From assembly GCA_021777555.1 (NCBI GenBank), contig JAJYDK010000010.1:1-64000 (forward strand): a DNA stretch of 64,000 nucleotides. The letters run 5' to 3'. Shown here piece by piece: positions 13,370-26,629 of the stretch. The translations under genes and the position numbers were made by a program. Position 1 is the first letter of the stretch. Every line of letters begins with the position of its first letter. Origin of the DNA: Pseudomonadota bacterium. Its GTDB lineage: Bacteria > Pseudomonadota > Gammaproteobacteria > Steroidobacterales > Steroidobacteraceae. The notes under the pieces are model-generated. The model had not been told where the DNA came from and did not search any database. It saw nothing but the letters and a program-made list of their open reading frames with translations.

Positions 13370-14083
13370 TCAGACTGCGCCGTCTGCGGCCGCCGCATCG
13401 CCGGGCGCCTCCCCGAGCTGAGACTTCATGAACGCGATCTCGCGCTCACGGATCGCCGCGAGCAGCGGCTCGGCGCTCGGCATGCCCGCGAATGCGCCAA
13501 AGCCACGCTCGATGAAATCCTGCATTGTGCCGAAGCCCAGGATGCGCGCCGGCGTGCGCGCCGCGCGCAGCGCCACCCCCACCAGAGGGATACGGACCGC
13601 CCGATCGAGCCGCCCGCCGACCTCCAGAATCAGCTCGATCTGTCGTCGACGCGCCGCGGGCCGGGCGACTTCGCGGTACGCCCGCGCGTAGGAGGCTGCC
13701 GTGACCGGACCTGGCGCGAGGCGCTCTGCCATCGCGAGATCGAGCTCCTCGCTCAGCACCTCGAGCTCGATCGCGAGGATCAGGATCTCCAGTGCCGAGA
13801 GCGGCAGCGTGCGTCGCAGCGCGCCCCAGGCGCGCGTAAGCTCCGTATCGCGGCGGGCGAAGTCCTGCGGCCCGTAGAGATCGCTCAGGAAGAAGCCGAC
13901 GGCTGCAGCGGTCACCGCACCGGCGCGCAGGTCCGCATACGTTCGCTCGAGCCGCTGCGCCTGCCACGCCTGGAGCCGTCGCATCCGCTCGGCCAGCGCC
14001 GGATCGGCGGCGATCCGCGAATCGAGCTGCGCCTTGCGCTCGAGCAGGCGGTCGGTCTCGATGCGGGAGCGCGCCTCGCTCAA
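13370..14083 (-). CDS. FFLEE-motif family protein of unknown function
   Basis: 237-residue protein, largely alpha-helical, without a signal peptide. It carries AVGFFLSDLYGPQDFARRD near residue 65, a variant of the FFLEELYGP motif that names a small family I recall from Xanthomonadales and related groups. C-terminal half has GGRLDRAVRIPLVGVALRAARTPA and a glycine/phenylalanine-rich FIERGFGAFAGM stretch. The start appears to be TTG, overlapping the lipase stop as TTGA, which fits coupled translation. It is last in the operon phasin-like protein, patatin, lipase, FFLEE. Biochemical role is not known; the context suggests a part in storage-lipid handling. Confidence 0.75.
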   Translation of the reverse strand: MSEARSRIETDRLLERKAQLDSRIAADPALAERMRRLQAWQAQRLERTYADLRAGAVTAAAVGFFLSDLYGPQDFARRDTELTRAWGALRRTLPLSALEILILAIELEVLSEELDLAMAERLAPGPVTAASYARAYREVARPAARRRQIELILEVGGRLDRAVRIPLVGVALRAARTPARILGFGTMQDFIERGFGAFAGMPSAEPLLAAIREREIAFMKSQLGEAPGDAAAADGAV

Positions 14084-14979
14084 TTGCGCAGCTCCGCAAC
14101 GATCCCCTCGAGGACGGCCGGCGCGCTCAACAGACTCAAATGCCCAAGGCCGCGCAGCTCGATCAAGCGGGCGCCGCGAATGGCCGCGCTGGTCGCGGGC
14201 GCGATGAGATTGTCATCGAGACTGTAGAGACTCGTCAGCGGCACGCCGAGCCGCCCCTCCTGCAGCCCGTTGAGCTCGAGCAGCCACGGGGATCCGCGGC
14301 ACATCTGCCGGGTGCTCGGCCAGCCGAATCGGCAGGCGATCTCGGTGCCATGATGGGGCGTGCCGAGCGTGATGATCCGCCCGATCACCCCGGGGTTGGC
14401 GATGCGCGCCGCCGCACGGGCCACCAGGCCCCCCATGCTGTGCGCGACGATCACCACCGGCCGGCCGCTCGCACGGAGTCCCTCGATCTGCTCGAGCAGC
14501 GCTTGGGCGAGTGCGTCGATATCGGCAAAGGGCGGCTCGAGATTCACCGCATCTACGCGCTCGATGCCGGCGGCACGCAGCGCCGCAAGCAGCGGTCGCC
14601 ATATGGCGCGATTGCAGGCGATGCCGTGCACCAGGATGACCTGCGCCGGCGGAGCACTCGGGCGCCCGGCCACGCGATCGAGCCACGCCAGGACCGGCTC
14701 GGCGGCCATGCGAAAGAGCATGAGCTCGAACTGCATCGCTTCCAGGCAAAGGATCCGCAGCACCATCACAATCGCCGCACGGCTCCCGTCCGAGCGCGCG
14801 CCGCGGCGCGCCACCACGAGCGAGACTGCGACCAACGTCACGGACATGCCCATCCAGGCCGCGGCGCCGGCCACCAGGGCTGCCCCGGGCGCTGCGAGGA
14901 ACGCTGCCGCACAGACTCCCACCGCCCCCGCGGCGAGCAGACGCGCCGCGAGCACGATCCTCCAGAACCGCGCCGCCAC
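14080..14979 (-). CDS. membrane-anchored alpha/beta hydrolase (lipase-like)
   Basis: 299-residue protein with two N-terminal hydrophobic segments (about 8-55) followed by an alpha/beta-hydrolase domain. Oxyanion-hole region HGIACN near residue 118, nucleophile elbow AHSMGG near residue 180 (Ser), LGTPHHGTEIA typical of triacylglycerol lipase/PGAP1-like enzymes, a catalytic Asp probably in SLYSLDDNLI and the His in GLGHLSLL. Start is GTG, 5 bp after the patatin stop. It overlaps the FFLEE gene. A cytoplasmic-membrane lipase acting on neutral lipid or polyester would fit the cluster, but the substrate is not shown by sequence. Confidence 0.85.
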   Translation of the reverse strand: MAARFWRIVLAARLLAAGAVGVCAAAFLAAPGAALVAGAAAWMGMSVTLVAVSLVVARRGARSDGSRAAIVMVLRILCLEAMQFELMLFRMAAEPVLAWLDRVAGRPSAPPAQVILVHGIACNRAIWRPLLAALRAAGIERVDAVNLEPPFADIDALAQALLEQIEGLRASGRPVVIVAHSMGGLVARAAARIANPGVIGRIITLGTPHHGTEIACRFGWPSTRQMCRGSPWLLELNGLQEGRLGVPLTSLYSLDDNLIAPATSAAIRGARLIELRGLGHLSLLSAPAVLEGIVAELRN

Positions 14980-14984
14980 GGCCG

Positions 14985-16226
14985 CTATCCGCCACCCAGC
15001 CCGGCGAGCACACTGTCCAGGCGATTGAGGGCACGCCCGAGCCGGCGCGCGACCCGTCGGGTATCGAGGCTCCTCTCGCGCACCGCGGTCGAGAATTTCC
15101 GCTCATGGTCGCTCAGGCGGCTCATGTCGAGATCGAGTCCGTGACGGCGCAGGATCGGGGCGAGCGCATCGGCCTGCGAGCGCAAATCGCGCCGGGTGCG
15201 CTGGTAGGCGTGATCGGTGAGCTCACGGCGGCCCGAGTAGCGGAACACGTTCGTGAAGAACAGCTTCTCATCGTGCCGGTCCGGCTCGAGCAACAGGACA
15301 TCGGCGTGCGGAAAGCGCGCACCGTAGTTCGCCATGCCCACCTGCATGCGCGAATGGATGAGCGAGCGGAACGTCTGGCCGAGAACCGCGGGCAGCCCGC
15401 GCGAGGCGAGGTTGACTGGGACCTCCCCCGTGGCCTGCGAGGCATCGAAAGGAACCAGCGGGTTGATGCAGATCGCCAGGCTGCAGCCGGCCTCGAGAGC
15501 CAGCGAGGCATGCATGGTGCGGATGAGTGCGCCATCGACATAATCGCGACCGTTGATTTTCACAGCCGGGTACAGGCCCGGGAGGGCCGCGCTCGCCACG
15601 ACGGCGCGCGAGATGGGCACCCGATCGTGCCGCGGGGTTCCAAAGGACACCGACTCGCCTGTGTTGAGATCAGTGGCCACCACGTAGAGACGGTGTGCGA
15701 GCTTGCGGAAGCTGTCCGTGTGGCCTTCGGAGCTGAATGCGGCGCGCAGGTAGTGCTCGAGGTGGCTGTTGTCAAAGAGCGCGCTCGGCATGAGCCTGCC
15801 GAGCGCATCGACCGCGGCGGGCCACTCCGCGCCGAGCGGATTGCGGGCGTACTGGCGGGCGATGTCCGCGAGCACCTGCGGAATCAGCGCGATCCTCTGT
15901 CCGTACTCGGCGAGCGCCGGTCGCATGGCCACCGCCGTGGCAAACGGAATCGCCGTCGATTCATCGTGGATGAACGTCGTGCCGAGGCTCGTGGTATCGA
16001 ACCCGTTGGCGAGGCCCGCGGCCACCAGGGCGCCGGAGCTCACCCCGACATAGACATCGAAGTCGGTGAGCGAGCGGCCGACGATCGACTCCCCGAGCGC
16101 GTGCAGTGCCCCGATCTCGTAGAACGCCCCGAGAGGCCCGCCGCCGGCGAGCGCGACCGCAAGCTTCCCCGTGCCCGCGCGCTCCCGCGAGGCACGCCTC
16201 GCGCGCGCGGGCTCGATGGTGAGCAT
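14985..16226 (-). CDS. patatin-like phospholipase family protein
   Basis: 413-residue patatin-domain hydrolase with no signal peptide. The oxyanion loop GGGPLGAFYEIGAL lies near residue 28, the nucleophile elbow is GVSSGAL (Ser about 64), and the second dyad residue is the Asp of VDGALIR near residue 232. The C-terminal 130 residues are arginine-rich and helical beyond the patatin domain. It follows the phasin-like gene by 6 bp and precedes the lipase by 5 bp. Patatins act as acyl hydrolases on phospholipids or neutral lipids; in this operon a storage-lipid substrate is an inference. Confidence 0.9.
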   Translation of the reverse strand: MLTIEPARARRASRERAGTGKLAVALAGGGPLGAFYEIGALHALGESIVGRSLTDFDVYVGVSSGALVAAGLANGFDTTSLGTTFIHDESTAIPFATAVAMRPALAEYGQRIALIPQVLADIARQYARNPLGAEWPAAVDALGRLMPSALFDNSHLEHYLRAAFSSEGHTDSFRKLAHRLYVVATDLNTGESVSFGTPRHDRVPISRAVVASAALPGLYPAVKINGRDYVDGALIRTMHASLALEAGCSLAICINPLVPFDASQATGEVPVNLASRGLPAVLGQTFRSLIHSRMQVGMANYGARFPHADVLLLEPDRHDEKLFFTNVFRYSGRRELTDHAYQRTRRDLRSQADALAPILRRHGLDLDMSRLSDHERKFSTAVRERSLDTRRVARRLGRALNRLDSVLAGLGGG

Positions 16227-16232
16227 CGTGCC

Positions 16233-16721
16233 TCAGTGCGCCGGCGCAGAGGCCGATTTGCGCCCAGAGGCCCGCGGGCCCACCGACCTGCGCGTACGCC
16301 GCGCCAGCTGCTCGATATTGGCGTTGAGCGCATCGACCCGCTTGCTCAAGGCCGCGAGTTGCTCCGCGCTCGGCACTCCGAGCTGCGTCAGCGCCCGGTG
16401 CACGCGCGTCTGGAAGATCTTCTCCAGCCCCTCGAGCGCATCGGCCGCCTGGCCGCGAACCTGGCCGATGCCCGCGCTCACCTTGGCCCGTGCGTCGCCG
16501 ATCAACTCCTGCAACGCCTGCTCCGCGGCGCCGCGCTGATCGGAATGAACGCGGGCCCCCTCGGTCACGAGCTCTTCGAAGAGTCGGGGGGCGCCGCTGC
16601 GCGCCCGCGCGGCCGCGCCGAGACCGGCGAGATAGATCTGATGCAGCGCATTCACCATCGTGGCCGGCGCGCGAGCAGCAGCGCTGCGCCGGCTCTTGCG
16701 GGACTTGCTCCGGGATGCCAT
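16233..16721 (-). CDS. phasin-like / PHA granule-associated protein
   Basis: 162-residue protein of the PhaF/PhaI-like phasin family. A basic N-terminus (MASRSKSRKSRR) is followed by a long amphipathic helical region (LHQIYLAGLGAAARA, LFEELVTEGARV, VRGQAADALEGLEKIFQTRV) and a heptad-like stretch, LAALSKRVDALNANIEQLARR. The histone-like AAKP tail of PhaF is absent. The ATG at 16721 is favoured by an AAGGGG ribosome site; the open frame upstream is a shadow of the TPR gene. It is the first gene of the operon leading into patatin, lipase and FFLEE genes. No PHA synthase is in the window, so it may coat polyester granules or lipid droplets. Confidence 0.85.
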   Translation of the reverse strand: MASRSKSRKSRRSAAARAPATMVNALHQIYLAGLGAAARARSGAPRLFEELVTEGARVHSDQRGAAEQALQELIGDARAKVSAGIGQVRGQAADALEGLEKIFQTRVHRALTQLGVPSAEQLAALSKRVDALNANIEQLARRTRRSVGPRASGRKSASAPAH

Positions 16722-16847
16722 GCCAAACCCCTTTTGCGGCCGCGGCCGCATATGCGTATTTACCCGAGTGGGCACCAGATGCCCGCCTCGTACTATAGGA
16801 GGGGAATTCGATCGGCTGGATTCGTACTTGCCACACCCGGTACCGTC

Positions 16848-17708
16848 ATGCATCGAGGAAACACTCCGGCTCGCGCCCGAGGCGGCACCTCCCGCGCCGA
16901 GCCGCATCAGCGGCTGCACCAACGCTGGACCCGCCTGCACCTGACCGATCGCGAGCCCTGGCCCGATGAGCACTTCGTCGGCGCCCTGGCCGCGGGCCAC
17001 GCCGGTCTTGCCTCCTGGCTCGCGACGCACGGAGGCGCTGCGGGCGTGGCGCGGGTTCTGCAGGAGGCGTGGAACGAATTTCATGACGGCGAGTTCAGCC
17101 GCGCGAAGAGGCTCGGTGAGGCGCTCGGCGTCTTTGGCGCCGTGGTGGCCGACAAAGCGGTCGCGGTCGACTCGCTTTATTCCAAGCGAAGCGAAGCGGA
17201 ACTCCTGAAGGCGCTGGAGTCGGCCATCGGGCGAGCCGAGCGCGCCGTCTCCGAGCTTCCCAACCAACCCAACACGCAATACACCCTGGCGTTGCTTCTC
17301 GGGCGCTACAGCCAGCGCATCTCGATCGTGAAGGCGCTCGCGGCCGGCCTGGCGGGCCGCGTGCGCCAGCACCTGGAGCGCGCGCTCGCCCTCGAGCCGC
17401 GGCACGCCGAGGCGCATCTCGCATTCGGGCTCTTCCATGCCGAGATCGTCAGCAAGCTCGGCTCGCTCGCCGCAAGCCTCGCCTACGGCGCCTCGCAGCG
17501 CGAAGCGCTCAGTCACTTCAGACAGGCGCTCGCGCTCGCCCCGCTCTCGCCCATCGTGCACATGGAGTTCGCGCACGGGCTGATGCTCCTCGATCCGGCC
17601 CGCTATCGCGAGCAGGCCGAGAGACTCTACCGCGACGCCGCCGAATGCGAGCCCGCCGACGCCATGGAGAGGCTCGATGCCGAGCGGGCCAGGGGCGGGC
17701 TGCGTTGA
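16848..17708 (+). CDS. TPR-like helical repeat protein, function unknown
   Basis: 286-residue soluble protein without a signal peptide. TPR-like repeats are visible in the C-terminal half: HLERALALEPRHAEAHLAFGLFHAEI and HFRQALALAPLSPIVHMEFAHGLMLLDP. The N-terminal region (WDRLH-like RWTRLHLTDREPWPDEHF) is conserved-looking but not one I recognise. Divergent from the phasin-like gene across 126 bp and convergent with the wax ester synthase gene (3-bp gap). Its location between lipid-body genes suggests a scaffold or accessory role, which is inference only. Confidence 0.75.
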   Translation: MHRGNTPARARGGTSRAEPHQRLHQRWTRLHLTDREPWPDEHFVGALAAGHAGLASWLATHGGAAGVARVLQEAWNEFHDGEFSRAKRLGEALGVFGAVVADKAVAVDSLYSKRSEAELLKALESAIGRAERAVSELPNQPNTQYTLALLLGRYSQRISIVKALAAGLAGRVRQHLERALALEPRHAEAHLAFGLFHAEIVSKLGSLAASLAYGASQREALSHFRQALALAPLSPIVHMEFAHGLMLLDPARYREQAERLYRDAAECEPADAMERLDAERARGGLR

Positions 17709-17711
17709 GCG

Positions 17712-19070
17712 CTAGGCATCGAGCGCGGCGCCACCGAGCAGCACGAGCAGCACCAGCCGCTCGAATTCCGAGGCGAGCAGCCCGACCAGCCGTTGCGGCT
17801 CCGGGATCAACTCGCGATCGGCCATGACGCCATACTGCACTCGTCCGCGGTAGGTGAACATGCTGACGCCTGCGCCAACGCTGCCGGACTGCGGCACCCA
17901 GAACAGCACCTCGGTGATGCTGCGGCCGGCAAGCGTGAGCGCCGCGGCGGGGCCGGGCAGATTGGAGGCGACCAGGCTCACCTTCGCGCTGAGCAGGTCG
18001 AGTGCGTACTCTTCCACCGCCGAGGGCAAATTCCCGAGGAGCGACAGCAGCCCGAACGTGGCGAGCGCCTGAGGAGAGCCTTTGAGCGCCTTGATGGCCG
18101 CACGCACGGTGTACAACCGCTCGAGCGGGTGGCGCACGCCGATCGGCAGCTCAACGAGCACCAGGCCGAACCGGTTGCCGAGCGAGGTGTCGGGCGGCCC
18201 CCCGGGCGCACCCTGCTTGAGGTTGACGGGAACCGCGGCCCGGATCGTCAGCCCCTCGACCGGCTCGCCTTCTGCCTCGAGGTAACGTCCGAGGGCCCCC
18301 GCCAGAGTCGCGATCAGCACATCGTTCACGGTGCAGCCGAGGCACCGGCCGATCGTGTGCACTTCCTCGAGCGAGAGCGCCTGCGCCCAGGCGAGGCGAC
18401 GCACTCCCGAGAGATCACGCCGCAGCCGCGTGGGTGGATCGTCGGACAGCGTTGCGAGACGCATCAGCTCGACGCCGATCCCGAGCGCCTGTTGGGCGAG
18501 ACCCACCGCCTGCGCCGGCCGCAGCGCGTAGTGCACTCCCGCCTCGATCAGCTCCGCGCCCGAACGAAGGACGTCGTGCGCCGTCTGCGGTGCGGGCACC
18601 GAGACCGCACCCGAGATGTCATGGTCCGCGAGCGACAGCAGAACCTTGACCAGTGCGATGCCATCGGCATAACAGTGGTGGATGCGCACGATGAGGGCGC
18701 TACCGCCCCGATACCGCTCGATCAGGTGAAATGACCAGAGCGGCCGTCCGGGCGCAAACGGGCTGCTGGCGAGCTCGCCCGCCAATGCCTCGAGCTCCCG
18801 CTGACCACCCGGTTCGGGCAACGCGGCCGAGAGGAGGTGATCGTCGAGATCGAAGGTGGGTGTCTCGAGCCAGCTGCCACCGAGCGTGTCGGCGGCCGGC
18901 CGCGTGCGAAAACGGGCGAAGGCGAGGAATCGCCGCTCGATGAGCTCCCGGAGCGGCTCGCGCCCGATCGGCTCACCGAGCACGATCAAGCCCACGATGG
19001 TCATCGGGTTGGCCGGCTGATCCATCAGCAGCCACGCCCGATCGACGCCTGACATGCGCTCGGCCGACAT
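17712..19070 (-). CDS. wax ester synthase / diacylglycerol acyltransferase (WS/DGAT)
   Basis: Bifunctional acyltransferase making wax esters from fatty alcohol and acyl-CoA, or triacylglycerol from diacylglycerol and acyl-CoA, at the inner face of the membrane. 452 residues, normal for the family. The catalytic HHxxxDG motif is HHCYADG near residue 145. Other family segments are GVDRAWLLMDQPANPM at the N-terminus, NLPGP near residue 375 and a VPVNLK segment in the middle. Start is the ATG at 19070; a second in-frame ATG (MSGVDRAW) lies five codons later and is equally plausible. Divergent from the fatty acyl reductase gene, so the alcohol-forming and esterifying steps sit side by side. Confidence 0.93.
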   Translation of the reverse strand: MSAERMSGVDRAWLLMDQPANPMTIVGLIVLGEPIGREPLRELIERRFLAFARFRTRPAADTLGGSWLETPTFDLDDHLLSAALPEPGGQRELEALAGELASSPFAPGRPLWSFHLIERYRGGSALIVRIHHCYADGIALVKVLLSLADHDISGAVSVPAPQTAHDVLRSGAELIEAGVHYALRPAQAVGLAQQALGIGVELMRLATLSDDPPTRLRRDLSGVRRLAWAQALSLEEVHTIGRCLGCTVNDVLIATLAGALGRYLEAEGEPVEGLTIRAAVPVNLKQGAPGGPPDTSLGNRFGLVLVELPIGVRHPLERLYTVRAAIKALKGSPQALATFGLLSLLGNLPSAVEEYALDLLSAKVSLVASNLPGPAAALTLAGRSITEVLFWVPQSGSVGAGVSMFTYRGRVQYGVMADRELIPEPQRLVGLLASEFERLVLLVLLGGAALDA

Positions 19071-19184
19071 GCGCGTAGTGTCGCGCGAGTCGCGGGAGCT
19101 GTGCCCCTCGGTTTGCCACGATACGAGCGCGGCGCATGAGCGGCGTAGCGTGTGCATCTCAAGACAGCGCCTGGCGCTCGACGC

Positions 19185-21167
19185 ATGACCTATTTCATCA
19201 CCGGTGGAACCGGGTTCATCGGACAGCGGCTCATCACGCGGCTCGCCGTCCGGGGCGAGCCGATCCACCTGCTCGTGAGGCCCGCTTCCGCGAAGCGCTT
19301 CGAGCGCTTGCGCGCGGCGTGCGGGGCGGCGGGTCGGCTGCTCATTCCGATCGAGGGGGATCTCGGCGCCGAGCGGCTCGCGGTCGCAGCCTCGGAACGG
19401 GAGAGACTCCGGGGCAGGATCGGGCATTTCTTCCACCTGGGGGCGCTGTACGATCTTGGCGCGCAGACTGCGCCCCTCGAGCAGGCCAACGTGCTCGGCA
19501 CACGCAATGCGCTCGCGCTCGCGCAGGAGCTCGGGGTGGGCTGCTTTCACCACATGAGTTCCATCGCGGTCGCCGGCCGATACCCGGGAGCCTTCACGGA
19601 GGAGATGTTCGAGGAGGTTGGGGATTTGTCACATCCCTACTTCCGCACCAAACACGAGGCCGAAGCGCTGGTGCGCGGCACCTGCCGCAGCCCGTGGCGC
19701 ATCTACCGGCCAGGCATGGTCGTCGGGGACTCGAGCACCGGCATCATGGACAAGATCGACGGCCCCTATTATTTCTTCAAGATCATCCAGCGGGTACGCG
19801 ACACCCTGCCCCGCTGGATCCCATTGTTCGGTCTCGAGGGCGGACACATCAATCTCGTGCCGGTGGATTTCGTGGCCACCGCGCTCGATCATCTGGCCCA
19901 CCTTCCCGGCGAGGACCGCCGCTGCTTCCATCTGACCGATCCCCTGGACAGACGAATCGGCGCCGTGCTCAATGTGTTGGCCGACGCCGCCCACGCGCCG
20001 CGCATGACCCTGCGGCTCGAGCCGGCGCTCATCGAGACGCTCACCTCCCTGACGGGCGCGACTCATGGCGCCCTGCAACCGCTGCGGCGGATGCTCGCGC
20101 AGCTCCTCGACGATCTCGGCGTCCCGGCTCCGGTGCTGGATCTGCTCGACTACCCGACCGCCTTCCCCGCCGGTCGCGCGACGGAACTCCTGGCGCGCGC
20201 GGACATTCGCGTACCGCCGCTCGAGGAGTACGCCTGGCGCCTATGGGATTACTGGGAGCGCCAACTCGACCCGGACCGTCCCGGCCGGCAGCGCCTCGCC
20301 GAAACGGTCCGCGGCAAGACGGTACTCGTCACCGGCGGGTCCGCGGGGATCGGCCGGGCGACGGCGCTGCGCCTCGCCGCCGCGGGCGCGAAGGTGCTCG
20401 TGGTGGCGCGCGATCCGATCAAGCTCGAGGCGGCGGTCGCGGCGATCCGCGCCATGGGAGGAGAGGCGGCCGCTTATGCGTGCGATCTCACCGACGCTGA
20501 GGCCTGCACCGCGCTCATCTCACGGCTGCTCACCGAGCAAGGCCAGATCGACGTGCTCATCAACAACGCGGGGCGCTCGATCCGCCGGGCCATCGAACAC
20601 ACCTACGACCGCCTGCACGACTACGAGCGGCTGATGCGGATCAACTATCTGGCCGCGGTGCGCATCACTCTCGGCCTTCTGCCAACGATGGCCGCGCGTG
20701 GCAGCGGACACATCATCAGCATCTCCTCCATCGGGGTATTGAGCAATGCCGCCCGTTTCGCGGCATATAACGCCTCCAAAGCCGCATTGGAGGCGTTCAC
20801 ACGCTGCGCCGCCGCGGAGTACCGTGAACGGGGCGTGCGCTTCACGGTGATCAACCTGCCGCTCGTGCGCACGGGCATGGTGGCCCCGACCCACCTCTAT
20901 CGGCGCGTCCCGCTGTTGAGTCCCGAACAGGCCGCGGACCTCGTGTGCGAGGCGGTGGTGCGCCGTCCCGTGCGCCTGGCGACACCCCTCGGCAGGCTCG
21001 CGCAGTTCGTCGAGACACTCGCTCCCGAGCTCAACCGCGCCGTCATGAGCGAGAGCTATCGGCTGTTCCCGGAGTCGGAGGCCGCCGGCGGCGCGGCCGG
21101 AGCGGAGGAGAGTCTGCCCTCCGAAGCGGCGGCCTTCGCGGCTCTGCTGCATGGACTGCGCCGCTGA
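19185..21167 (+). CDS. two-domain fatty acyl-CoA/ACP reductase (alcohol-forming type), SDR fusion
   Basis: 660-residue fusion of two short-chain dehydrogenase domains. The N-terminal extended-SDR domain begins TGGTGFIGQRL and carries YFRTK as its YxxxK; the C-terminal classical SDR domain begins with TGGSAGIGRA near residue 388 and has YNASK. This domain order and size match the 661-residue Marinobacter reductase that takes fatty acyl-CoA to fatty alcohol. NADPH use is expected from the family. The start is the ATG opening MTYFITGG; an in-frame start 11 codons upstream lacks a ribosome site. Paired divergently with WS/DGAT across 114 bp, which together would make wax esters from acyl thioesters. 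Confidence 0.88.
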   Translation: MTYFITGGTGFIGQRLITRLAVRGEPIHLLVRPASAKRFERLRAACGAAGRLLIPIEGDLGAERLAVAASERERLRGRIGHFFHLGALYDLGAQTAPLEQANVLGTRNALALAQELGVGCFHHMSSIAVAGRYPGAFTEEMFEEVGDLSHPYFRTKHEAEALVRGTCRSPWRIYRPGMVVGDSSTGIMDKIDGPYYFFKIIQRVRDTLPRWIPLFGLEGGHINLVPVDFVATALDHLAHLPGEDRRCFHLTDPLDRRIGAVLNVLADAAHAPRMTLRLEPALIETLTSLTGATHGALQPLRRMLAQLLDDLGVPAPVLDLLDYPTAFPAGRATELLARADIRVPPLEEYAWRLWDYWERQLDPDRPGRQRLAETVRGKTVLVTGGSAGIGRATALRLAAAGAKVLVVARDPIKLEAAVAAIRAMGGEAAAYACDLTDAEACTALISRLLTEQGQIDVLINNAGRSIRRAIEHTYDRLHDYERLMRINYLAAVRITLGLLPTMAARGSGHIISISSIGVLSNAARFAAYNASKAALEAFTRCAAAEYRERGVRFTVINLPLVRTGMVAPTHLYRRVPLLSPEQAADLVCEAVVRRPVRLATPLGRLAQFVETLAPELNRAVMSESYRLFPESEAAGGAAGAEESLPSEAAAFAALLHGLRR

Positions 21168-21750: not shown

Positions 21751-24053
21751 AGAACCCCTCCAGTGAGGTTGCATCCGGGCATGGCGGGCAGTTGTGTCCC
21801 CGTTGGTACCGCGACTTCCACCGCCATGAGCCCATCGCAGGTCGGCGTGGTCTGAAGTCCGGTTGAAAAATCGATCCAGGTGTCGGTGAGCCCCTCGGGC
21901 GGCGGCATGCTGAGCGGCAGCGTGCCGATCGAGGCCATGATGCGCGCCCACACCGGCACCGCCCCCATCTCACCGGTGAGGCCGGTCGGCTGATTGTGAT
22001 CGTAGCCGATCCAGACGACCACGAGGTTGCTGCCCGAGAAGCCCGCGAACCAGCTGTCGCGGTCGTTCTGTGACGTGCCGGTCTTGCCCGCCGTCGTCAG
22101 CCCGGGCGGCAGGATGCGCGTCGCCGGCTCGCCCGTGCCGTGCTGCACCACCTGCTCCATCATGGTGGTGATCTGGTAGACATCGGAGGGGGGTGCGACC
22201 TGGGTGACCTGCAGCGGAAAGGCCTTCAATGGCTTGCCATCCGCGCTGACCACCGCCTGCACCGCGCGCAGCGGGGTGAGGAAGCCCCCATTGGCGAGCC
22301 CGTTGTACAGCTGCGCCACCTGAAACGGGGAGAGGTCGCTCGCGCCAAGCAGCATCGAAGGCAACTGCCGCTGCGGCGGCATGCCGAAACGTTCCAGCGT
22401 CCGCGCCACGCTGTTGAGGCCGACGCTCATGCCGAGGTTTACCGTGGCGTCATTGAGCGAATCGGCGAGCGCGCGCACCAGGGGCACCGGACCCAGGTCG
22501 GTGCGTGTGTAGTCCTTCGGGCGCCAGTACCGCCCGTTGGCGAGCTTGATGGCGACCGGCACGTCCTGAATGATGGAGGCCGGATTGTAGTTGCCCGTCT
22601 CGAGCGCGGTCAGGTAGATGAATGGCTTGATCGTCGAGCCGATGGAGCGGCGCGCATCGAGGGCGCGATTGAAGCCGTCGTAATCGGCGTCGCGCCCACC
22701 AATGACCGCCAGCACATCGCCCGTCTGGGGCGAGGTGACCACTACGGCGCCCTGCAGCTGCTCCTTGCCGCGGTGATGCCAGCGATCCAGGACGTGCAGT
22801 TGCGCATCGAGGGCGTGCCCGGCGATCTCCTGCACCCTCGGGTCGAGGCTCGTGTAGATCCGCAGGCCCGACTCGGTGATCTCCTGCTCCGGGTAGTCGC
22901 GGGTCAGCGTGCGGCGCACGAGATCCATGTAGGCCGGATAATAGGCGCCGGAGGCCTCGGCTGTGACGCCAAGCGGCTGGCGGATGGCCGCGCGAGCCTG
23001 GGCCTCGGTGACCACGCCCTGCTGCGCCAGGGTGTCGAGCACCAGATTGCGCCTGGCGAGCACGCGCCGCGGATCGCGGCGCGGGTTGTAATACGTCGGA
23101 CCGCGCACGATGGCGACCAGCATCGCGATCTGCGGCAGATCGAGCTCCGAGAGCGGCTCGCCGAAATAGTATTCGCTCGCGAGCCCGAAGCCGTGGATCG
23201 ACCGGTTGCCGTCCTGGCCGAGAAAGACCTCGTTGAGGTAGGCGTTCATGATGGACGCCTTGCTGAAATGCTCGGTCAGCGAGACGGCCATGATGGCCTC
23301 GCGCATCTTGCGCCACAGGGTCCGCCGGTTGTTGAGGAAATAGCTGCGCACGAGCTCCTGGGTGAGGGTGCTGCCGCCTTCCGCGTAGCGATGCTCGATC
23401 AGATCGACCCAGGCCGAGCGCAGAATGCCCTTCGGATCGATGCCCCAGTTGGTATCGAAGGTGCGATCCTCGACCGCCTTCAGGGCCCTCGGCAGCAGGG
23501 GCGGAACCTGCTGTGGGGTGACGACGATACGATCCACCCCATCGCTCGGGAAAATGCTGCCGATGAGGAGCGGATCCAGGCGCACCACCGGAACCTGCCC
23601 ACCCGCGCCGCTCAGCGCCTGCACGCCCGCCGGGCCGAAGCTCACCGCGAGGCGCATGGGCCCGCGGCTGCGGTCCGCGAACTGCGCGGGGCGCAGCACC
23701 ACATCGATCCGCTCCCGCCCCGCCTGGTAGGTTCCCGGTCCCTGCAGCTCGGGGACGCGGCGATAGGACAGACGCTCCAGCTCATGCTCGAGCTGAGGCT
23801 CGCTCAGCGGCAGCCCCGCGTACAGCTGCATCGGCGCGGCGTAGACGCGCGCCGGAAGCGTCCAGTGCAGCGCCTTGAACTGCCGCGTGACCAGCCTGTC
23901 CAGATAGAACGCGTAGCCGGCGCACACGATCGCCACGACGAGCGCGCCGATCAGCGCGACGCCGATGATCCGTCCTCGCCAGGAGCGCTTGCGTGCGCTG
24001 GATTTTCCGCGCGAGGACTTGCCTCGCGGCTTGCGCTTATCCCTGCCCTTCAG
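21747..24053 (-). CDS. mrcB: penicillin-binding protein 1b (bifunctional transglycosylase/transpeptidase)
   Basis: Class A PBP that polymerises and crosslinks peptidoglycan. Order: basic cytoplasmic tail, one membrane helix, UB2H-like region, transglycosylase domain (EDRTFDTNWGID, GGSTLTQELVR), and transpeptidase domain with SxxK (GSTIKPF), SxN (DSLNDA) and KTG (AGKTGTSQ). Start is unusual. The first conventional start in frame, GTG at 23936, would cut the membrane helix in half. The frame stays open upstream with a Lys/Arg-rich segment and the rest of the helix, and the only near-start is CTG at 24053, overlapping the lysC-lysA stop as CTGA. I therefore extend to 24053; the gene call is firm, the start less so. 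Confidence 0.93.
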   Translation of the reverse strand: MKGRDKRKPRGKSSRGKSSARKRSWRGRIIGVALIGALVVAIVCAGYAFYLDRLVTRQFKALHWTLPARVYAAPMQLYAGLPLSEPQLEHELERLSYRRVPELQGPGTYQAGRERIDVVLRPAQFADRSRGPMRLAVSFGPAGVQALSGAGGQVPVVRLDPLLIGSIFPSDGVDRIVVTPQQVPPLLPRALKAVEDRTFDTNWGIDPKGILRSAWVDLIEHRYAEGGSTLTQELVRSYFLNNRRTLWRKMREAIMAVSLTEHFSKASIMNAYLNEVFLGQDGNRSIHGFGLASEYYFGEPLSELDLPQIAMLVAIVRGPTYYNPRRDPRRVLARRNLVLDTLAQQGVVTEAQARAAIRQPLGVTAEASGAYYPAYMDLVRRTLTRDYPEQEITESGLRIYTSLDPRVQEIAGHALDAQLHVLDRWHHRGKEQLQGAVVVTSPQTGDVLAVIGGRDADYDGFNRALDARRSIGSTIKPFIYLTALETGNYNPASIIQDVPVAIKLANGRYWRPKDYTRTDLGPVPLVRALADSLNDATVNLGMSVGLNSVARTLERFGMPPQRQLPSMLLGASDLSPFQVAQLYNGLANGGFLTPLRAVQAVVSADGKPLKAFPLQVTQVAPPSDVYQITTMMEQVVQHGTGEPATRILPPGLTTAGKTGTSQNDRDSWFAGFSGSNLVVVWIGYDHNQPTGLTGEMGAVPVWARIMASIGTLPLSMPPPEGLTDTWIDFSTGLQTTPTCDGLMAVEVAVPTGTQLPAMPGCNLTGGVL

Positions 24054-26629
24054 AGCACGATCTCCTCTGCGGGGTCACGCAGGTTGTAATGCGAGCTCAT
24101 GACGTGACCATACGCCCCGGCGTTGGCGATGAGCAGGACATCCCCCTCGCGTGTCGGTGGCAGCAGACGATCATGGCCGAGCACATCGGCGCTCTCGCAG
24201 ATCGGGCCCACGACGTTGACCAGCTCGCTGGCCACTTCCGACAGGCGGCTGAGATTGACGATCTCATGGTATGCCCCATAGAGCGCCGGACGGATCAAAG
24301 AGTTCATCCCCGTGGCGCAGCCGACGTAGCGTACCTGCCCTTTGGTCTTGACCTGAGTCACCCGCGCGAGCAGCACCCCGGCGAGCGCCGAGAGGTACCG
24401 GCCCGGCTCCATCCAGATCTCGAGCTGCGGATGCTCGGCGCTCACGGCGCGAAGCAGCGTATCGAGCTTTTCGAGGTCGAGCCCGAGCTGGTCGCTGCGT
24501 TCCGGCACGCCGAGACCCCCGCCTATATCGATGGCGCGCACTTCGCCGAAGTGTTGGGCCAGGTCCGCCAGCTGGCGCGCGGTCCGCTCCCAGGTCGTGA
24601 CGTCGAAAATGCCACTACCGACGTGCGCCTGCAGACCCACGATACGCGCCCCGTGACGCTGTGCCTCGCGGGCGAAGTGGTCCAGGTCTGCGATCGGCAC
24701 CCCGAACTTGGCATGCGCGCCCGCCGTGCGCACGTGATGGTGGTGGCCGGCCCCCACGCCGGTATCGATGCGCACGAAGATCTCGCGGCCGCGCAGGAGC
24801 TCACCCCACTCCAGCACGTGCAGATTATCCACCGTCGCCTGCACGCCCCGCTCGAGCGCCCAGCGGTACTCCTCGCGCGATGCGAAATTGGGCGTGTAGA
24901 GCACCCGGCGCGGGTCCAGGTCCTTGAACAGATCCAGCGCCCGCTGCACCTCGCCGCGCGAAACGCACTCGAACTCGACCCCTTCCTGCCGCACGGCGCG
25001 CAGGACATCCGGATGGGGATTCGCCTTCATCGCGTAGTGGACCCGAGCGACCGAGCCCATCGAGCGCAATGCGCGAGCGCAGGCGCGCACAGTCTCCAGG
25101 TGATAGACGTAGGCGCAATCGCGCTCACCGAGCGTTGCCAGCAACTGCTCGCGCCGCCCGCGCCACCAGGGCGCGGACGGAACGATGGCCGCGGGCGCCT
25201 TGACGAACAGCTGCTCCCAAGTGGGCCCCAGGACCCGCTCGCCCGCCGCAGGGCGGATGAGCAGCTCGTGCAGTTGATCGACGAGCCGGTCGCCCTGATT
25301 CTCATCGACCACGAAGGTGAAGTTGAGATCGTTGGCCGCCTGGCTCACCAGGTAGATCTTCTGCTCCTCGAAGAACTCGAAGGCGCCGCCCAGCTGGTGG
25401 AGGATGGCCCGGATGTTGCGCCCCACGAGACTCACGGAGGCGCAGGGGCCGATCACCTGCACTCGGCAAAGGCGCGACAGATCTCCGACCAGGGCACTCA
25501 GCAGAGCCGTATCCAGCGTGTTGGCGGCCGGATCGAGGGAAACGGTGACGTTGGTCTCAGACGTTGAGATCAGGTCGACCGACATGCCGTGGCTCTTGAA
25601 CACCTGGAACGCGTCTGCGAGAAACCCCACCTGATGCCACATGCCCGGGCTCTCGAGAGAGATCAGCGTGATGCCCTTCTTCGTGCACACCGCCTTCACC
25701 TGCGCAGTGCCATCGCCTTCGGCGGACAGCACCGTGCCCTCGAGCTCGGGCGCCTGAGTGGCGTAGACGTGCAGCGGAATGCCGTACTGGCGCACCGGCA
25801 GGATGCAGCGCGGGTGCAGGACCTTGGCGCCGCTGGTGGCGATCTCCTGCGCCTCGTCGTAGTGCAGGGAACGCAGCAGACGCGCCGTCGGCGTCGAGCG
25901 CGGATTGGTGCTGAACATGCCCGGAACGTCCGTCCAGATCTCGAGCCGCTGCGCGCGCAGCTTGGCGGCGAAATACGCCCCCGAGGTGTCCGAACCGCCG
26001 CGCCCGAGCAACACGGTATTGCCATCGGCATCGCTTGCGATGAACCCCTGCGTCACGACGATGGGGGCCATCGCTCTCAGGCGCTGCTCGAGCACGTGAT
26101 CTGGCGCGAAATTACACACCGCCGAGAGCACACTCGCCTTCGTGGAGGCGCTTGCGCGCTCTTCGGCAACGAGCATCGTGCGCGCGTCGGCCCACTCGGC
26201 CTCCAGGCCCTGCGCGCGCAGGAATCGCACGCCGAGATCGGTGGCCATCAGCTCACCGGCCGACATGACCCGGGCCCGGGTCCGATCGCTCACTTCGCCG
26301 ATCAGCGCGACGCCCGCGGCGATCTGCCTGAGCTCGCCCAGCTGGCGCTCGCAGAGCTCGCCCAAGGGAATGCCGAGCTCAGCGGCGAGCCTGCGGTGCC
26401 GGTCCTCGATCAGACGCAGCTCCTCCTCCTGGGCCTGGCCACGGGCGGCATCGAGCAGTTTCTCGAGGCGGTCGGTGACGCCACTCACGGCCGAGTGCAC
26501 GATGAGCGCCCGTGCGCCCTGCTGGACGCGGGCAGCGGCGACTTTGGCGATGTTGCGCCAGTTGGCGAGCGAGGAGACGCTGGTCCCCCCGAACTTGAGG
26601 ACGATCCACTCGGAAGCGATGCGGGTCAC
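24050..26629 (-). CDS. lysAC: bifunctional aspartate kinase / diaminopimelate decarboxylase
   Basis: 859-residue fusion joining the first and last steps of lysine biosynthesis. The N-terminal aspartokinase has VLKFGGTSV at residue 10, GRGGSDTSGA near 215 and ACT regulatory repeats up to about 465. The C-terminal decarboxylase is fold-type III: YAMKANPH supplies the PLP lysine, HVGSGIF and GGGLGVPE bind phosphate, and EPGR and CESADVLG complete the active site. The same fusion is known in Xanthomonas and Xylella, so it is a useful taxonomic hint. Start is ATG. Its stop overlaps the proposed PBP1b start, linking lysine/meso-diaminopimelate metabolism with peptidoglycan synthesis. Confidence 0.96.
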   Translation of the reverse strand: MTRIASEWIVLKFGGTSVSSLANWRNIAKVAAARVQQGARALIVHSAVSGVTDRLEKLLDAARGQAQEEELRLIEDRHRRLAAELGIPLGELCERQLGELRQIAAGVALIGEVSDRTRARVMSAGELMATDLGVRFLRAQGLEAEWADARTMLVAEERASASTKASVLSAVCNFAPDHVLEQRLRAMAPIVVTQGFIASDADGNTVLLGRGGSDTSGAYFAAKLRAQRLEIWTDVPGMFSTNPRSTPTARLLRSLHYDEAQEIATSGAKVLHPRCILPVRQYGIPLHVYATQAPELEGTVLSAEGDGTAQVKAVCTKKGITLISLESPGMWHQVGFLADAFQVFKSHGMSVDLISTSETNVTVSLDPAANTLDTALLSALVGDLSRLCRVQVIGPCASVSLVGRNIRAILHQLGGAFEFFEEQKIYLVSQAANDLNFTFVVDENQGDRLVDQLHELLIRPAAGERVLGPTWEQLFVKAPAAIVPSAPWWRGRREQLLATLGERDCAYVYHLETVRACARALRSMGSVARVHYAMKANPHPDVLRAVRQEGVEFECVSRGEVQRALDLFKDLDPRRVLYTPNFASREEYRWALERGVQATVDNLHVLEWGELLRGREIFVRIDTGVGAGHHHHVRTAGAHAKFGVPIADLDHFAREAQRHGARIVGLQAHVGSGIFDVTTWERTARQLADLAQHFGEVRAIDIGGGLGVPERSDQLGLDLEKLDTLLRAVSAEHPQLEIWMEPGRYLSALAGVLLARVTQVKTKGQVRYVGCATGMNSLIRPALYGAYHEIVNLSRLSEVASELVNVVGPICESADVLGHDRLLPPTREGDVLLIANAGAYGHVMSSHYNLRDPAEEIVL

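Follow-up and report, generated by a model that had tools for sequence, protein, structure and literature searches.

Does a run of seven genes in a Steroidobacteraceae bacterium (Gammaproteobacteria) encode one system for the storage of neutral lipid, or do these genes merely lie side by side? The genes occupy one region of the window, the whole 64,000-nucleotide stretch analyzed here (assembly GCA_021777555.1, contig JAJYDK010000010.1, positions 1 to 64,000), and encode a phasin, a patatin-like lipase, an alpha/beta hydrolase, an FFLEE-family protein, a tetratricopeptide repeat (TPR) protein, a wax ester synthase/diacylglycerol acyltransferase (WS/DGAT) and a two-domain fatty acyl reductase (Table 1). 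Comparisons with related genomes confirmed the observation and supported its interpretation at the genomic level: the seven genes, hereafter the cassette, probably constitute one conserved neutral-lipid storage module, most likely for wax esters, with the phasin coating the droplet. We infer the product, its localization and the roles of the phasin, the hydrolases, the FFLEE protein and the TPR protein from genomic evidence.

The phasin, patatin, hydrolase and FFLEE genes form a tight operon, and a re-reading of the coordinates showed that the spacing given in the original prediction is correct: 6 bp separate the phasin and patatin genes, 5 bp separate the patatin and hydrolase genes, and the open reading frames (ORFs) of the hydrolase and the FFLEE protein overlap by 4 bp. 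The TPR gene is divergent from the phasin gene and converges with the WS/DGAT gene, with 3 bp between their ends. The WS/DGAT gene is itself divergent from that of the 660-residue reductase, as had been claimed, and the alcohol-forming type assigned to this enzyme agrees with its match to NF005539. A curated family cut-off was passed by six of the seven proteins, the TPR protein being the exception (Pfam). An inverted repeat, CTCCGC-n4-GCGGAG, lies between the phasin and TPR genes only in G006, G008, G029 and G030.

Table 1. Coordinates of the seven cassette genes in the window and of further features in related loci (G, genome; L, locus).
Feature	Position	Strand	Family or remark
Phasin (162 aa)	16233-16721	-	First gene of four-gene operon; PF05597
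Patatin-like lipase (413 aa)	14985-16226	-	PF01734
Alpha/beta hydrolase (299 aa)	14080-14979	-	Abhydrolase_6, PF12697
FFLEE-family protein (237 aa; TTG start)	13370-14083	-	NF047641
TPR protein (286 aa from the ATG used; start codon not certain)	16848-17708	+	ORF
WS/DGAT (452 aa)	17712-19070	-	TIGR02946
Two-domain fatty acyl reductase, alcohol-forming type (660 aa)	19185-21167	+	NF005539
Short FFLEE piece	L030:13307-13567 and L031:7559-7819		G024 and G020
Peroxiredoxin-type	L047:9776-10426, L105:4452-4913 (Pfam scan), L142:5815-6282 (by cluster)		

Conservation was examined in a genus set of 37 genomes, comprising the source genome and 36 congeners. A PF05597 phasin was found in 12 of them, the same 12 encode a WS/DGAT and an FFLEE protein, and all seven genes are present in every one of these 12 genomes. 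In nine, the whole cassette lies on one contig with gene order and relative orientation unchanged; the reductase gene of G020 is cut by a contig end, and in G023 (break inside the TPR gene) and G035 (break between the phasin and TPR genes) the cassette is divided between two contigs, the ends of which are consistent with this arrangement, and the junctions are presumably the same. The genes flanking the cassette in the window recur beside it in only two of the 11 other genomes (G003 and G018); the other nine gave distant paralogue matches or none, with G008, G020, G023 and G035 examined on one side only. The seven genes thus stay together while their surroundings change, and conservation of the set in relatives makes chance adjacency very unlikely. 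The conserved adjacency that was to be looked for in related genomes was therefore found in all 12 phasin-bearing congeners, and where a gene order unique to this genome, with the phasin beside polyhydroxyalkanoate (PHA) genes in relatives, had been named beforehand as the sign of coincidence, the opposite was observed. One flank presumably carries a fused aspartokinase/decarboxylase and PBP1b, and the other Rieske, exonuclease III and other genes. The 859-aa frame at 24050-26629 (minus strand), which we take to be a fused aspartate kinase/diaminopimelate decarboxylase, and its neighbor adjoin the cassette also in G003 and G018.

The phasin matched PF05597 at 100 bits (cut-off 28.8), and TIGR01837, the model for a PHA granule-associated protein, at 82.4 bits, which is under its cut-off of 94.7. 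The source genome gave no match to PF09361 (Phasin_2), and the best PDB hit of the phasin (E = 0.097) is at chance level. A search for PHA synthase with PhaC_N (PF07167) and the class III model TIGR01836 (E ≤ 0.001) returned no match in the window or in the 4.02-Mb source assembly (117 contigs, 97.4% complete), and the absence originally noted thus holds for the whole assembly with two models. Within the genus, the same models matched 13 congeners, none of them among the 12 cassette genomes, an overlap of 0 among 37 (hypergeometric p = 0.0015, kinship ignored); G012, with one 21-bit TIGR01836 match only, was left out of the positives, and its inclusion (14) leaves the overlap at 0. None of the 13 congeners with a PHA synthase encodes a PF05597 phasin.

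The comparison was extended to a sample of 274 genomes drawn evenly across the class, in which only matches over cut-off were counted; this left out genomes with weaker matches, namely G176 (WS/DGAT), G137 (FFLEE), eight for the phasin and four for PhaC, and the p-values take no account of kinship. Ten of the 13 phasin genomes encode a WS/DGAT (0.81 expected, p = 9e-12), whereas four encode a PHA synthase (3.13 expected, p = 0.38). WS/DGAT is present in 8 of the 10 phasin-bearing taxonomic families. FFLEE proteins accompany WS/DGAT in seven of nine genomes (0.56 expected, p = 3e-8), the phasin in seven of nine and PHA synthase in five of nine (2.17 expected, p = 0.04), and WS/DGAT itself co-occurs with PHA synthase in 8 of 17 (4.09 expected, p = 0.03). 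This class-wide co-occurrence is the strongest argument that the PF05597 phasin goes with neutral lipid: it tracks WS/DGAT and not PHA synthase, which lends genomic support to the earlier suggestion that the phasin may serve lipid droplets. The patatin and phasin genes are also neighbors in G039, G043, G046, G051 and G059.

The WS/DGAT of the window scored 125.7 bits against WS_DGAT_cat (cut-off 23.6), 118.3 against WS_DGAT_C (20.7) and 370.6 against TIGR02946 (309.95). Its active-site motif HHxxxDG reads HHCYADG and is present in 18 of 18 homologues examined; relatives in the PDB are 7nxg and 6chj. The reductase matched NF005539 (PRK07201) over residues 1-658 at 852.6 bits (cut-off 549), with an NAD_binding_4 domain at 5-233, an adh_short domain at 378-568 and two YxxxK motifs (YFRTK and YNASK). 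In G268 a reductase gene is divergent to a phasin-FFLEE pair (L047:5918-9681), a second FFLEE gene lies elsewhere and the genome gave no WS/DGAT match; it would either have a different wax synthase or put the fatty alcohol to some other use.

The patatin matched PF01734 at 89.5 bits (cut-off 27.7) and carries the motifs GVSSGA and, as read in its translation, GGGPLG and DYVDGA. Among its homologues, GGGxxG was found in 18 of 18, GxSxG in 18 of 19 and Asp-Gly in 16 of 18; GxSxG is lacking only in that of G025, which is cut by a contig end. The presence of these motifs in WS/DGAT, reductase and patatin indicates that the enzymes look intact. A reading of the patatin as part of a cyclic-oligonucleotide-based antiphage signaling system (CBASS) or other anti-phage system was rejected (43.7 bits against a cut-off of 200). 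The hydrolase (PF12697, 49.4 bits, cut-off 26.3) has the motif AHSMGG, similar to that of 14 of 17 homologues and missing in G025, G040 and G166. Three hydrophobic segments (residues 8-26, 39-57 and 70-88) fall within its first 90 residues and suggest a membrane-anchored esterase.

The FFLEE protein matched NF047641 at 211.6 bits (cut-off 55), and an alignment of 31 sequences has four invariant positions (R137, P178, A179 and G194). Its AlphaFold2 model is all-helical, with a mean predicted local distance difference test (pLDDT) score of 91.5. A profile search found no PDB relative at E ≤ 1, and the model had no Foldseek match at E ≤ 0.001 and a best VIA-align Z of 5.7; such weak or missing matches do not establish a new fold. 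A TetR-like reading was discarded (PF17937, 17.3 bits, below the cut-off of 26.4). In four relatives the FFLEE gene abuts that of a long-chain acyl-CoA ligase, with a 4-bp overlap in G044 and G057, overlapping ORFs in G040 and a 16-bp gap in G054, and in G043, G046, G051 and G059 such a ligase lies within about 4 kb; the two ligases scanned were nearest to FadD-type models, under their cut-offs (818.8 of 884 and 858.3 of 1023). FFLEE genes also stand beside hydrolases: patatin and hydrolase in the genus, hydrolase alone in G040, G054 and G166, a Lip_C lipase in G127 and a GDSL lipase in G145. The scanned neighbors look unrelated in G066 and for the second FFLEE gene of G268. Pfam scans of selected FFLEE neighbors also yielded many unrelated genes, among them those for OMP decarboxylase, URO-D, DHQ synthase, DUF445, UbiE and pseudouridine synthase. 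The full-length FFLEE gene of G024 and G020 is followed, about 1 kb downstream, by a short second FFLEE piece (86 aa, matching positions 146-230 only), which is either a broken duplicate or part of a split protein. Peroxiredoxin-type genes (AhpC-TSA) adjoin the FFLEE or reductase gene in distant sets.

The TPR protein of the window reached no curated Pfam cut-off; a homologue is present in 12 of 12 cassette congeners. A structural model built with 14 sequences (mean pLDDT 89.6) had as its first Foldseek matches the PTPIP51 TPR domain (7cc7, E = 3.5e-5) and the sterol carrier BstC (7t1s, E = 1.1e-4). By VIA-align, the nearest structures were 8g52 (TPAT, Z 18.9), 2pl2 (18.1), 7t1s (18.1), 7cc7 (18.0), 3u64 (TatT, Tp0956; 17.4) and 4di3 (17.2), followed by two E3-ligase chains (16.8 and 16.4) and other TPR proteins at about 15 or lower; lipid- or ligand-binding TPR families thus make up five of the top six, with the generic TPR protein 2pl2 tied among them. 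At the profile level, the RMD1-3 family (PF21033) scored 13.8 bits in the window protein, under the gathering score of 26.7, and matched 9 of 14 TPR relatives at E ≤ 0.1 (best 6.2e-5); the generic TPR_11 and TPR_17 matched 13 and 14 of the 14, respectively (best 4.4e-9). The T-component family PF16811 (TatT/BstC) was not among the 18 families matched by these 14 members at E ≤ 0.1. Hydropathy revealed no hydrophobic N-terminal segment from the start used, and the protein is probably cytosolic. A mode of action like that of the lipid-carrying TPR proteins is therefore best treated as a lead from the model, and not as membership in one of their families.

The set extends beyond the genus. The TPR profile recovered 115 relatives in named genomes, and the results that follow come from 80 of the 115, a locus being the TPR gene with at most 10 kb on each side and a family match at least 60 bits. 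Fifteen of the 80 loci, all in metagenome-assembled genomes (MAGs), were counted as congeners, L068, L071, L072 and L078 by likeness only; 13 of the 15 contain all seven families, and the remaining two lie on the truncated contigs of G035 and G023. Among the 65 remaining loci, 24 contain at least four families, 19 at least five, seven at least six and two all seven. Sets of at least five were found in Chiayiivirga, Luteimonas, Silanimonas, Alkalisalibacterium, a Wenzhouxiangellaceae MAG, a Burkholderiales MAG, two Chromatiales MAGs (contigs of G039 and G053) and a closed Dechloromonas MAG; Thermomonas loci contain four. The phasin gene occurs with those of the patatin, FFLEE protein, reductase and/or WS/DGAT in several families outside the genus. 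WS/DGAT genes are present in 17 of the 65 loci, and in 13 of these the TPR gene ends at most 200 bp away; reductase genes are present in 27 of the 65 (two weak, at 65 and 108 bits). Loci of Luteimonas, Silanimonas and Thermomonas combine phasin, patatin and reductase, often with FFLEE, without WS/DGAT, and in the isolates Luteimonas marina, L. aestuarii, L. terrae and Alkalisalibacterium limincola the set stands at the locus and WS/DGAT elsewhere. In 20 TPR-bearing genomes hand-picked from the 80 loci for a genome-wide search, WS/DGAT was found in 19, also where missing at the locus, which shows that linkage can be lost while the genes stay; a PHA synthase over cut-off was found in seven.

Several further genes were recorded at these loci. 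A TetR-type regulator occurs in 33 of the 80 (cluster c4; the member scanned matched PF13972), near the TPR gene in the loci inspected; none is among the seven genes of the cassette, the part of the window searched for it. In 13 loci, among them some of Luteimonas, Silanimonas and Chiayiivirga, the phasin and reductase genes have near them a gene for a protein of median length 337 aa (e.g., L111:5854-6831); the member scanned carries a restriction-endonuclease-like Mrr_cat domain. Fifteen loci, many from Arenimonas, share a cluster of short, weakly phasin-like genes (e.g., L125:9380-9853, L089 and L112), divergent from the TPR gene in the loci inspected; that of L125 scored 24.3 bits against PF05597, below the cut-off.

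Conserved order, co-occurrence and retained motifs give genomic support to the proposal that synthesis, coat and mobilization of a storage body are encoded together. The two-domain reductase would convert acyl-CoA or acyl-ACP to fatty alcohol, and the WS/DGAT, judging from its family, would join this alcohol with acyl-CoA into wax ester, or perhaps triacylglycerol, at the membrane. The phasin may then cover the lipid body instead of a PHA granule, and the TPR protein may shuttle acyl lipid among the membrane, the enzyme and the droplet. Mobilization of the store would fall to the patatin and the membrane-anchored hydrolase, which would set fatty acids free. The FFLEE protein, in the least certain step, may act where these are released and activated, and couple the one to the other.

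Triacylglycerol could instead be the main store, with the alcohols from the reductase used for another purpose or entering a minor wax-ester fraction. WS/DGAT enzymes are commonly bifunctional, a WS/DGAT gene lies beside the TPR gene with no reductase seen in, for example, the short stretches L129, L134 and L136, and the reductase beside the phasin-FFLEE pair of G268, a genome without a WS/DGAT match, implies that fatty alcohol can have another use. The reductase gene nevertheless accompanies the cassette in each of the 12 congeners, although cut in G020, and is found in more of the non-genus loci than WS/DGAT (27 against 17 of 65), and we consider a predominantly triacylglycerol store unlikely. 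Far less probable is that the phasin belongs to a PHA-granule operon that has come to adjoin wax genes by chance or survives beside them as a remnant. Both families, PF05597 and TIGR01837, take their names from PHA granules, and four phasin genomes of the class sample have a PHA synthase, but the 12 cassette genomes gave no match with two models, the 13 congeners with that enzyme have no such phasin, the phasin follows WS/DGAT across the class, and its linkage to FFLEE and patatin recurs in several families. Nor does it seem at all probable that the trio of patatin, hydrolase and FFLEE serves phospholipid turnover as an operon merely neighboring the storage genes. Patatins often act on phospholipids, and the trio is kept without the phasin in two congeners with a PHA synthase; against this, the phasin and patatin genes are 6 bp apart here and neighbors in five other genomes, and FFLEE tracks both WS/DGAT and phasin.

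Several observations weigh against a single wax-ester storage module. Neither cassette nor PHA synthase was found in 12 of the 37 congeners, five of them at least 85% complete. The patatin-hydrolase-FFLEE trio is not strictly bound to the cassette locus, as seen in G025 and G028, the PHA synthase congeners that keep it without a PF05597 phasin (of WS/DGAT and FFLEE, G028 has both, its WS/DGAT being a different one and elsewhere, and G025 has FFLEE only). G071 and G224 encode the phasin but neither WS/DGAT nor PHA synthase, and in G042 and G056 the phasin lies apart from the other six genes; in G066, G127, G166 and G257 it could serve either store, because WS/DGAT, phasin, FFLEE and PHA synthase are all present. 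FFLEE occurs without WS/DGAT in G145 and G268. The TPR gene stands alone in 26 of the 65 non-genus loci, some of which are cut by contig ends, and G347 (Pseudorhodoferax) combines it with a PHA synthase and no WS/DGAT. The best matches of the TPR profile were designed consensus TPR proteins (E = 1.8e-18, against 0.0037 for PTPIP51), and a search for an operator shared by the two kinds of divergent promoter region found none, with no 10-mer common to both kinds in more than four of the 23 regions from congeners.

Bacterial wax-ester and triacylglycerol storage is known; the new elements are two testable components, the TPR protein and the FFLEE protein. To our knowledge, the structural and handling proteins of proteobacterial wax-ester bodies are poorly known, and a single locus in which synthesis, coating and hydrolysis are encoded with a candidate lipid carrier points to the parts to test; its carriers include the four isolates listed above, which makes the module testable. 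No description of the seven-gene set was found in the titles and abstracts shown among the matches listed from the open-licence literature on phasins in connection with wax esters, patatins or neutral lipids, and within that literature we met neither the statistical tie between PF05597 and WS/DGAT, nor the candidate roles of the TPR and FFLEE proteins, nor any relevant paper on the FFLEE family. If the module is as proposed, PF05597 phasins in genomes without a PHA synthase would be read differently, the FFLEE family would gain a process, and the TPR protein would be a bacterial functional counterpart of a eukaryotic lipid-transfer TPR domain. A broader proposal is offered tentatively, and we hold it to be possible but rather doubtful: PF05597 phasins would serve neutral-lipid bodies at least as often as PHA granules, as part of a widespread proteobacterial module in which a PTPIP51-like TPR carrier works with the WS/DGAT that its gene frequently adjoins, and FFLEE, a new helical factor in lipolysis, hands the released fatty acids to a FadD-like ligase.

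Known systems resemble parts of this locus. PTPIP51/RMDN3, BstC, TatT (Tp0956) and TPAT are among the best structural neighbors of the TPR model (Z 17.2-18.9). The TPR domain of PTPIP51 is reported to bind a phospholipid in its cavity and to transfer phosphatidic acid in vitro (PMC9239997), and BstC to bind sterols, its authors considering that T-components may traffic lipid (PMC10942540). In the window protein, however, the PTPIP51-type match (PF21033) is under the cut-off and the generic 2pl2 scores alike (Z 18.1), and T-component proteins are described as periplasmic lipoproteins, whereas the window protein, from the start codon used, shows no N-terminal hydrophobic segment by hydropathy. 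The phasin belongs, over cut-off, to the same Pfam family as the PHA-granule phasins, but differs in that its genome gave no PHA synthase match and its gene is linked to WS/DGAT. A precedent for a phasin on lipid is GA14, reported as isolated also from lipid inclusions of Rhodococcus ruber (PMC5658603, citing Kalscheuer 2001) and likened here by its designation as a phasin. The lipid-inclusion machinery of actinobacteria (MLDS; mycobacterial inclusion proteins) likewise provides storage bodies with associated proteins (PMC5504291). FCR1 is listed among the inclusion-associated proteins of mycobacteria (PMC10699116), in a report whose main text names no phasin, patatin or TPR protein. MAQU_2507-like genes near ws/dgat have already been reported from sediment metagenomes (PMC10351704); the main text of that study contains no patatin or TPR protein and names a phasin once, on a betaproteobacterial scaffold. 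FCR1 (Rv3391, 650 aa) is described as reducing acyl-CoA to aldehyde and alcohol and as sharing 40% identity over 639 aa with MAQU_2507 (PMC3522743). The known wax-ester pathway, with a reductase of the MAQU_2507/FCR1 type and a WS/DGAT, has the same two kinds of enzyme, a likeness drawn here at the level of enzyme type, and the window adds to them a coat, hydrolases, an FFLEE protein and a TPR protein.

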